NCBI GenBank assembly: GCA_016618085.1
Contig: JABLTG010000051.1
Coordinates: 42,925-106,924, forward strand
Reading direction: 5' to 3'
DNA length: 64,000 nt
Origin: Neovahlkampfia damariscottae
Lineage: Eukaryota; Heterolobosea; Selenaionea; Neovahlkampfiida; Neovahlkampfiidae
In this document: positions 32,850 through 64,000 of the stretch, piece by piece
How positions within the stretch are numbered: position 1 is the stretch's first letter
How the letters are laid out: every line of letters starts with the position of its first letter
Made by a program: the position numbers and the translations under genes
Notes under the pieces: model-generated
Databases searched by the model: none
What the model saw: only the letters and a program-made list of their open reading frames with translations
What the model was told of the DNA's origin: nothing

Positions 32850-32956
32850 TTGAGTTGATTTGGATTGGTTCAAATTTAAAAAAAAAATGAGGAACAAGTT
32901 CAAACTAAAGAAAACGAAATCAATTTTCGTGAAAGAATACGCCCAATGAATTGATG

Positions 32957-33160
32957 GTTATTGTGATAAAAGTGGCCAATTCGATTTAATTTTGCCAACA
33001 GCTGTTTCTAATTTAGCTTGAAGAATCAAAGTTTTTTGTTGTGGTGAATCATTAAGTTGTACTGTTTTTTCTTCCGGAAAATCTTTGTACAATGGATTTG
33101 GAACATGGGTGTCAGGGTAAAAGTCAGGAAATTTCTTGATCTGTCTTGTTCATTCTCCAA
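32957..33160 (-). CDS. Small conserved-looking ORF without a clear start
   Basis: Between ELOF1 and the hydrolase gene a minus-strand frame reads KKFPDFYPDTHVPNPLYKDF, then EEKTVQLNDSPQQKTLILQ and ends GKIKSNWPLLSQ at about 32957. The composition is protein-like. The only nearby ATG (about 33152) is in a different frame and no GT donor lies between, so the 5' end needs an unseen exon, a 1-nt assembly error, or a frameshift. I do not recognise the protein. Confidence 0.4.
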
Positions 33161-62381: not shown

Positions 62382-63287
62382 ATGCACAAATTCTTGTTGG
62401 TGTTAGTCGTTTTTTCATTCCTGTTTTTCACCATCAACGCAGTTCCTGTCCGTTGTGGTGAAGTTACTGTTGATGCTTTGGAATATGAAGAAGAATTAGA
62501 CATTGCAGATGATCTTGATGAAGATTTAGATATGTTTCAATTGGCAAATCCTTGTAAAACAGGTAAAGTCTGTGTTCATTACTGCAAAAGACCAAATGGG
62601 TCAATTTCATTGAAACATAAAATTTACTTGGCTGATTTTGTTCAACATTCCATTGGAAATGAAGTTGACAAAACAAAAGCATTTGACGAAGCATGTATCA
62701 AAAGAACAATGACAAAATCATTTAGAAATTTGTTATTAAAGAAAGCATTGATATTTGTCATCAATAAAATCAAAAGGAATCCTAAGGCACATTCAAGAGT
62801 CACAAAAAGTTTTCGACTTGCAAAGAGAAAATGGAGAACACTTTTGAGATACCTTGAAGCTGAAGGTACACCACTTGAACAATATTTTGGACAAATGGCT
62901 CAAATGTTCAATACATTTGGTAAAATTTGTGTAAAAGAAAAACATTGGAGAAGAACAGTTGGTCAAAAATTAAAAGATTTTCTTAATAGTGGATATGATA
63001 GAAGTGTGCAAAAAGAAAAGAACAAATCTTTAAAAAAATACTTGAAAAATAAATTCAAAAAGTTAAAAAGTTCAGAATCAAAAGCTAAAGATTTAAATCT
63101 TTCACGTACAATGAAAGTTTTGACAAAAATGTATATTCGTAGATTCAAAAGAATTATTCTTGCATTAGATGCGGATAAACGCTATTGTGTTTGTGATCAC
63201 TACACATCACAACCAGGAATTTCAGTTCCACCACAAGTAACTGAAAAGATCAACACTCGTTGTTCAGAAAAAATGAAAGGAAATTAA
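62382..63287 (+). CDS. Secreted basic helical protein, unknown function
   Basis: Single exon, 301 residues. A signal peptide (MHKFLLVLVVFSFLFFTINA) is followed by an acidic segment (EYEEELDIADDLDEDLDMF), which could be a propeptide. The mature part is Lys/Arg-rich and helical (KKALIFVINKIKRNPK, RLAKRKWRTLLRYLEAEG, LKKYLKNKFKKLKSS). Cys pairs near the start (CKTGKVCVHYC) and end (CVCDHY, NTRCSEK) could form disulfides. The acidic-pro/basic-mature layout is seen in secreted antimicrobial or pore-forming peptides, but nothing here proves that role. It lies next to the Fanzor gene, with tail-to-tail orientation. Confidence 0.65.
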   Translation: MHKFLLVLVVFSFLFFTINAVPVRCGEVTVDALEYEEELDIADDLDEDLDMFQLANPCKTGKVCVHYCKRPNGSISLKHKIYLADFVQHSIGNEVDKTKAFDEACIKRTMTKSFRNLLLKKALIFVINKIKRNPKAHSRVTKSFRLAKRKWRTLLRYLEAEGTPLEQYFGQMAQMFNTFGKICVKEKHWRRTVGQKLKDFLNSGYDRSVQKEKNKSLKKYLKNKFKKLKSSESKAKDLNLSRTMKVLTKMYIRRFKRIILALDADKRYCVCDHYTSQPGISVPPQVTEKINTRCSEKMKGN

Positions 63288-63289
63288 AT

Positions 63290-63420
63290 GTTAAATTTCG
63301 TTTAAAACTACTTTTGGAAATATATTTTTTTTTTCCGCTATCTTAAAACTGACTTTTCTGTTCATTCTGATTAATCAAGTTTCTTTCGGGATAGGACCGT
63401 CGCCAACAGTACTGGCAGTT
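63290..63420 (-). ncRNA. Candidate 3' guide-RNA (omega-RNA) region of the Fanzor element
   Basis: The last 45 nt of the nuclease ORF (63378-63420) are strikingly GC-richer than the rest and include palindromes CAGTACTG (63408-63415) and, at the stop codon, TGATTAATCA (63368-63377). In TnpB/Fanzor elements the guide RNA scaffold overlaps the 3' end of the ORF and continues downstream. The position fits; the RNA itself is inferred. Confidence 0.35.
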
Positions 63421-64000
63421 TTTGGATTTCCAATAAAATTTTGTATATTCATCAGAAATATATTTCTTGCTCCATTATAATCTCTTGGAAGAGAAAAATT
63501 ACAATATTTACAATTGAAATGATCTTTTTTTCCAAGTTTCCAATCTATTTTTCCACATGATCCACATGTACAACTGGTATAATGTTCTGAAACTTCATGT
63601 ACTTGAACAGAATCTTTTTGAGCAAGATGTTTTAGTGTTTGACGAAATTGAAAATGAGACCAATGAAGCATTTTTCTCACTGTTGTACTATGAATTTTTC
63701 TTTCCCATTTTTTAATCATTCCTTTGACTGGAAATTTTGAAATCAAAATTTCATCATTATTTTCACAAAGATCTTTGGAAACACTTTTATGAAATGCTTC
63801 TTTCAATCCTTGAATTCGGTTTTGATATTTTTGATATTTTTTCTTCAATTTATATCTTTTTTTTTTTAATTTTTTTATTTCTTCTTTTGACATTTTATCA
63901 TTGGACTTATTTTTATCAATCTCAGATTGAATTTTATCACATTTCAACGCATTTTTAAATAATTTTGAAACATCACCTTTTTCATATTCCGTAAATTTTC
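63375..64000 (-). CDS. Fanzor (eukaryotic TnpB) RNA-guided nuclease, N-terminus outside window
   Basis: The frame is open from the right edge to a TGA at 63375. C-terminal TnpB/OrfB landmarks are all present: a Lys-rich helical region, KEAFHKSVSKDL preceding the RuvC-II strand, the zinc ribbon YTSCTCGSCGKIDW...CKYC (two CxxC pairs), and RuvC-III LPRDYNGARNIF with its Asp. The RuvC-II Glu expected in an ENDxIVVEDL-type block is Ser here (NNDEILISKF). Glu residues occur about 48-51 positions later in VHEVSEHYTS, just before the zinc ribbon; this matches the rearranged active site described for Fanzor proteins. RuvC-I and the wedge/REC region lie beyond the window. No intron is seen in this part. 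Confidence 0.88.
   Translation of the reverse strand, partial: KFTEYEKGDVSKLFKNALKCDKIQSEIDKNKSNDKMSKEEIKKLKKKRYKLKKKYQKYQNRIQGLKEAFHKSVSKDLCENNDEILISKFPVKGMIKKWERKIHSTTVRKMLHWSHFQFRQTLKHLAQKDSVQVHEVSEHYTSCTCGSCGKIDWKLGKKDHFNCKYCNFSLPRDYNGARNIFLMNIQNFIGNPKTASTVGDGPIPKET

Follow-up and report, generated by a model that had tools for sequence, protein, structure and literature searches.

We analysed a 64,000-nucleotide stretch of DNA from the heterolobosean Neovahlkampfia damariscottae (contig JABLTG010000051.1 of assembly GCA_016618085.1, positions 42,925 to 106,924 of the forward strand; hereafter the window), the right edge of which carries part of a gene for a Fanzor, a eukaryotic relative of the TnpB nucleases. 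The best explanation of the whole, to which we give a probability of about 0.8, is that this gene belongs to a non-autonomous IS607-type Fanzor element, and that in autonomous relatives of the element the serine recombinase gene tnpA is dual-coded with the nuclease gene. The window copy adds one Fanzor to those known, and the weight lies in what its relatives show: the tnpB frame lying over tnpA is kept open beyond chance. The nested, dual-coded transposase of these autonomous kin is the part that is unexpected to specialists. Papers are cited below by PMC number, each for parts of its text.

An earlier note on this DNA, made from the letters alone, had described a Fanzor with a zinc ribbon, an intact RuvC-III Asp and a RuvC-II Glu replaced by Ser with an alternative Glu downstream, and all of these are borne out. 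Residues 115-180 of the window open reading frame (ORF) match PF07282 (Cas12f1-like_TNB, E 3.6e-16), the sole Pfam family passing the cut-off, and the C4 zinc ribbon with its CxxC pairs, the RuvC-III Asp173 and the displaced Glu are present. Ser87, in LISKF, stands at what we take to be the position of the canonical RuvC-II Glu in TnpBs, and Glu138 follows 51 residues later, six residues ahead of the first CxxC, matching the pattern E-x6-CxxC. This is the displaced-Glu pattern given for Fanzors by Yoon et al. (PMC10711439); as the rearranged active site is already an established Fanzor hallmark, it is not new in itself. The window ends where contig C254 ends (base 106924), so the copy is inextensible within the assembly and is truncated before RuvC-I. 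The missing RuvC-I Asp, which the note had held could count against a Fanzor, does not do so, because longer sister copies (L003, L004 and L005) carry it in the DPG motif (ALDPGVRTF), as do relatives. Compared with other copies, that of the window shifts frame within the final codons, and its reading frame terminates at ...PKET. It is not a chance resemblance, because a search of its own genome scored 150 matches among 156 candidates (counts that include two Fanzor families and fragments). By its sequence the window Fanzor is kin to the RNA-guided DNA nucleases and most likely of the Fanzor2 kind; the best-matching solved fold for its family is a Fanzor2, that of mimivirus (PDB 9b0l). Scans of viral contigs returned no confirmed close relative of it among 33 stretches.

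The window family is an abundant repeat. Comparison of copies places the element ends at A|CGGCYAATGAATTGATGG... on the left and ...GTCAGTTTTAAGATAGCGG| on the right; with up to 2 mismatches allowed, the left-end pattern occurs at 95 sites and the right-end pattern at 105 sites genome-wide, and the reversed patterns at 0. The right-end match of the window copy (C254:106259-106278) is window 63335-63354. The complete element L003 is 1870-1871 bp long and has the Fanzor as its only gene, split by one frame change; the usual Fanzor stop codon is 8 bases short of the right end. Ten copies have two ends, at lengths of 121, 560, 560, 568, 578, 578, 578, 587, 1160 and 1870 bp, and the internally deleted derivatives keep both ends down to the smallest, of 121 bp, with about the last 100 bases retained. 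Matches lay at most 210 bases from a contig end in 19 of 30 own-genome loci examined. This had first suggested telomere or retroelement targeting, which we rejected: since internal two-ended copies exist and the ends sit on differing flanks, the clustering reflects assembly breaks at the repeat.

The anatomy of these ends points to IS607. GG is present at both ends of the element, and IS607 elements have such end anatomy, with exchange at GG (PMC6188088, PMC10711439). No terminal inverted repeats were found, the 25 longest among 98 inverted pairs in L003 including none that links its two ends, and no target duplication, the flanks sharing A only (AA in some) in 10 of 10 two-ended copies inspected by eye. 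CGG is preceded by A in all 37 distinct left flanks, and the 53 right flanks start with A (30), T (18), G (3) or C (2), one of them (L044) being probably a chance match. Because phmmer (E<=10) finds no tnpA serine recombinase in L003, we call this a non-autonomous IS607-type element and not a full IS607. Serine recombinase genes occur in the same genome (8 matches to PF00239, of which 6 exceed the cut-off), and a second Fanzor family, 41% identical to that of the window, shares its elements with a serine recombinase (L091, L104). The ends of the second family read CTGAAWCGG... on the left and ...AAGTGGGTG on the right; in register, the left ends of the two families are alike at 32 of 60 bases (p 0.0001) and the right ends at 11 of 20 (p 0.0097; both against single-base shuffles).

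We infer from these sequences that the window family is moved in trans. An IS607 serine recombinase encoded elsewhere in the genome would recognise both element ends and move the element by exchange at GG, without inverted repeats or target duplication, as is suggested by the end anatomy together with the presence of such recombinases in the genome. The Fanzor, with a right-end RNA whose guide would be flanking host DNA, would recut the vacated site, as expected from the known role of TnpB, and recutting would keep the element and let it multiply; two-ended copies with inner deletions would be carried along. ACGG, or part of it, would be the target-adjacent motif of the Fanzor. Elsewhere in the genome, at L106 on C263, an IS607-like right end with no recognisable left end stands beside an EGF-like repeat gene, and comparison of its flank by eye with the neighbouring repeat points to an ACTG target supplied by the host.

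For the autonomous relatives, we pooled 41 loci from a scan of viral contigs with the best 80 of 494 confirmed stretches from a scan of prokaryote genomes, made with an alignment of cyanobacterial-type relatives, and took at each of the 121 loci the two ORFs that overlap most. All 80 prokaryote stretches are titled cyanobacteria. Both genes were found by phmmer in 110 of the 121 loci, and the tnpB frame was tnpA+1 in 110 of 110, tnpA sitting within the 5' portion of the Fanzor/tnpB ORF. Some loci show complete overlap and others a partial one: where the tnpA match is at least 450 bases (78 loci), at least 90% of tnpA lies inside the tnpB ORF in 55, and the minimum is 59%. In the protist itself, a recombinase frame of 243 codons and a Fanzor N-terminal frame of 228 codons are open over the same 0.7 kb of L091. 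In all three settings (this genome, cyanobacteria and viral contigs) tnpA would be dual-coded with the N-terminal part of Fanzor/TnpB in frame +1.

Some individual loci merit description. In L137-L140, L142, L155, L158 and L091, the earliest ATG of the tnpB/Fanzor frame follows that of tnpA by 7-10 bases, a spacing that would allow leaky scanning in a eukaryote. In L136, from Candidatus Paraprochloron terpiosi, one continuous ORF covers both recombinase and nuclease core, through fusion or a frame change. On plasmid A of Trichormus variabilis ATCC 29413 (L239, 2041-3774), the tnpB ORF is open from 2041, the annotated TnpB starts at 2569, and the gene table lists no tnpA, a tnpA-like frame lying at 2172-2624. 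Among the viral contigs L195-L227 are 28 nested-layout loci without a recognisable CxxC zinc ribbon in the tnpB ORF pieces.

Selection on the overlap was measured in 56 of the 78 loci, less than 90% alike and chosen regardless of openness, with expected stops taken from synonymous shuffles preserving both the tnpA protein and its codons. Frame +1 contains 58 stops against 243.8 expected and is open throughout in 27 of the 56 loci against 0.26 expected, whereas the control frame +2 contains 688 against 699.6. All but two of the frame +1 stops (56 of 58) fall in the first 40% of tnpA, leaving 2 against 172.5 expected in the distal 60%. This depletion is seen in cyanobacteria (1 against 96.5; 36 loci) and in viral contigs (1 against 74.3; 20 loci), with the displaced-Glu pattern (1 against 107.7; 39 loci) and without it (1 against 64.3; 17 loci). 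Nine ordinary IS607 plasmid tnpA genes, used as controls, have 109 stops against 116.9 overall and 73 against 77.9 distally, and there is no depletion in two cyanobacterial plasmid tnpA genes outside that sum (L238, 5 against 6.6; L240, 17 against 16.5). Synonymous shuffles of the L091 tnpA gave a mean of 6.2 stops, with 0 of 2000 open. In 9 pairs that are 80-90% alike, third positions of tnpA (second positions of tnpB) differ at 0.139 within the overlap and third positions of tnpB downstream at 0.288. Between L091 and L092 there are 17 differences in the 702 bases of overlap and 80 in the 695 bases downstream, a contrast compatible with dual coding that mosaic recombination could also have produced; L091 and L094 differ in the overlap by 34 third-, 24 first- and 9 second-position changes, an ordinary pattern of single tnpA-like constraint.

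Several observations weigh against the account given here. At least one tnpB-frame stop occurs early in tnpA in 29 of the 56 loci, and within the overlap variation remains highest at tnpA third positions, so that tnpA and not the tnpB frame is the stronger constraint. No own-genome copy examined has both frames intact throughout. The displaced-Glu pattern is found in 79 of the 110 loci, and 28 of the 31 without it are the viral contigs lacking a recognisable ribbon. The N-terminus of the window family matches the overlapped N-termini over a 20-column motif only (hhalign probability 7, E 0.0049, score 23.6, compared with 6.4-12.9 when columns were shuffled 20 times and 13.0 on reversal), and the loci that keep an N-terminal motif without tnpA, discussed below, form about four groups by N-terminal sequence. 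The similarity between right ends of the two families is weak by local alignment (p 0.158), a Helitron search was negative but so was its positive control, and folding of the last 100-150 bases of the right end is no better than in dinucleotide shuffles.

Other explanations of the overlap fit these data poorly. Least likely, in our judgement, is that the tnpB frame is open through composition or codon bias, TnpB starting after tnpA and the long ORF being accidental. The RefSeq start inside the Trichormus variabilis plasmid ORF would suit this, as would the partial overlap of IS607 ORFs, which is already known (PMC9956272, PMC6188088), but shuffles preserving the tnpA protein give about 172 distal stops where 2 are seen, and in ordinary IS607 tnpA genes the stops are about as many as expected. 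Nor would an accidental ORF sit well with an N-terminal motif that persists in loci without tnpA, with an AF2 model (P0118) in which residues 90-107 and 131-140, alone within the overlapped part, are predicted to be ordered, or with the solved chain of the mimivirus Fanzor2, which aligns from its residue 53, ahead of the core. Scarcely more credible is programmed frameshifting that joins TnpA to TnpB, the overlap serving the frameshift. The constant +1 relation and the single ORF of L136 speak for it, but the open +1 frame spans most or all of tnpA, far past a slip site, and has its own first ATG close behind that of tnpA in the eight loci named above.

A third alternative concerns the origin of the window element, which might have arisen by capture of a Fanzor1 in another eukaryotic transposon (Helitron2, Crypton or an unknown one) rather than from IS607. 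Many transposons carry Fanzor1 proteins, and known Fanzor elements include non-autonomous Helitron2-like ones (PMC3627910). We nevertheless regard capture as unlikely, if less so than the two explanations above: the best solved-fold match is a Fanzor2, the same genome has IS607 recombinases with a sister Fanzor, and the left ends of the two families are similar.

Under the IS607 reading, the overlap also bears on where the Fanzor N-terminus came from. A motif from the overlapped part (P-[FYW]-W ... SW) is kept in 9 of the 11 loci where no tnpA was detected; given their roughly four sequence groups, these are not nine independent losses. The motif would be kept as protein in such copies, and the window family, which lacks tnpA and has a comparable motif, may belong with those retaining an overprinted N-terminus. 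We lean towards the view that, in the Fanzor-ancestral lineage of DPG-type, displaced-Glu IS607 TnpBs, the nuclease N-terminus was born by overprinting tnpA, and that eukaryotic Fanzors kept it after loss of the recombinase. A profile match of the N-terminus with probability 93.4 was not used, as its alignment includes the start of the core. Separately, the N-termini MSKQLKLDSFW (L003), MSKQLTLDSFL and MSKQLKLDSFL (P0007, P0008) resemble what we take to be a PIP box, a PCNA-binding motif, and are putative examples of it.

The earlier note had also seen an abrupt rise in G+C over the last codons and read it, with two palindromes, as a guide RNA scaffold. The rise is real, from 0.22 at 63435-63534 to 0.48 at 63385-63434. 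The position agrees with that reading, because the right end is where the right-end RNA (reRNA) sits in known IS607 TnpB elements, and the segment is retained in the 121-bp form. A small hairpin exists, made of GCCAG/CTGGC in most copies and including a G-U pair in that of the window; its pairs survive in 50-53 of the 53 right ends compared (34 unique rows), mostly unchanged or with one-sided G-U changes. Folding, however, stays at the mean of dinucleotide shuffles, with z-scores of -0.03 and 0.02 for the window copy and -0.46 for L003, and covariation, the lack of which the note had held could count against its reading, did not appear: among the 53 right ends a compensatory two-sided change occurs in the probable chance match L044 and in 0 assured copies. 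The recombination end is the same segment, and its retention could equally reflect recombinase binding. By analogy, a guide RNA at the right end of the window family is plausible, and we put the chances that the tail is kept as a structured guide RNA at about even.

We compared the window family with the Fanzor2 of mimivirus (L79, PDB 9b0l), with IS607-type Fanzor2 elements and with other known systems. It differs from the first two in being without a recombinase gene, in its approximately 100 copies and in its internally deleted derivatives. As in the TnpB-only IS1341-type elements of bacteria, the nuclease gene stands alone between the ends and is presumably moved in trans (PMC3627910); unlike these, the family has a eukaryotic host, IS607-like ends and a displaced Glu. 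DPG and displaced Glu are shared with the cyanobacterial displaced-Glu TnpB IS607 elements ('pro-Fanzors', PMC10711439), which have the nested tnpA layout of the family's autonomous cousins and, unlike the window family, carry tnpA, dual-coded. SPu-1 of Spizellomyces punctatus (Fanzor1) is likewise Fanzor-only and about 2 kb long, but has 33-bp terminal inverted repeats and putative TA duplications (PMC3627910), of which the window family has none. Seven records of ordinary plasmid IS607 (Levilactobacillus, Agathobacter, Thiodictyon, Acidiphilium, Vibrio breoganii, Stanieria and Microcystis) have tnpA upstream of tnpB on the same strand, with annotated overlaps of 4-50 bases and DPG or displaced Glu in 0 of 7. 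IS607 ORFs are described as often overlapping (PMC6188088) and as partly overlapping or separate (PMC9956272), and the main text of PMC10711439 has 0 matches to overlap, nested, reading frame, N-terminal or extension. We found no report of tnpA nested in tnpB in the literature searched, outside which lie subscription papers and ISfinder.

Table 1 Features of the Fanzor element and its family in the window.
Feature	Position	Strand	Basis or remark
Right part of Fanzor-only IS607-type element	63335..64000	(-)	Element right end (63335) to contig end
Fanzor C-terminal part, 207 codons	63375..63998	(-)	ORF open at 5' side; upstream portion lost beyond contig end
Ser87 (LISKF), at canonical RuvC-II Glu site	63738..63740	(-)	Motif check and alignment of relatives
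Glu138 (EHYTSCTC), displaced/alternative RuvC-II Glu	63585..63587	(-)	Column invariant in two alignments of relatives
Zinc ribbon CxxC...CxxC	63501..63566	(-)	ORF translation and Pfam match
Asp173 (RDYNGARNI), RuvC-III	63480..63482	(-)	Translation and alignment of relatives
G+C-richer right end, presumed reRNA scaffold and recombinase site	63335..63434	(-)	G+C 0.40; function inferred
Terminal GG, presumed IS607 crossover dinucleotide	63335..63336	(-)	GG rule from PMC6188088, PMC10711439
A-rich host flank, would-be guide segment if copy expressed	63315..63334	(-)	Inference
Solo left end of window family	32940..32997	(+)	56/58 bases; diverges after 58 bases

The window scan made found no right end matching the solo left end in Table 1. 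Adjoining the element is an ORF of 301 codons (62382-63287, (+)) with a signal-peptide-like start. As to the affinity of the host, among named hits to Lon protease those of Naegleria, Willaertia and Andalucia are at 50-53%, and chytrids and other groups come equally close.

A transposase gene and an RNA-guided nuclease gene occupy one stretch of about 300-600 bases in two frames, a layout seen in cyanobacteria, in viral contigs and in a protist. If the overprinting origin is true, nuclease and transposase would be physically tied, and the long N-termini of Fanzors would be explained, as would annotation that drops or shortens one of the two genes. The overprint offers a testable origin of the Fanzor N-terminus and a physical reason for the two genes to stay together, and it corrects both gene annotation and TnpB constructs that start at the core and omit the N-terminus. 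The left-flank motif ACGG predicts the target-adjacent motif of the Fanzor. The protist itself is a natural experiment, with about 100 element ends, in which the deletion forms show what end sequences are enough for spread.
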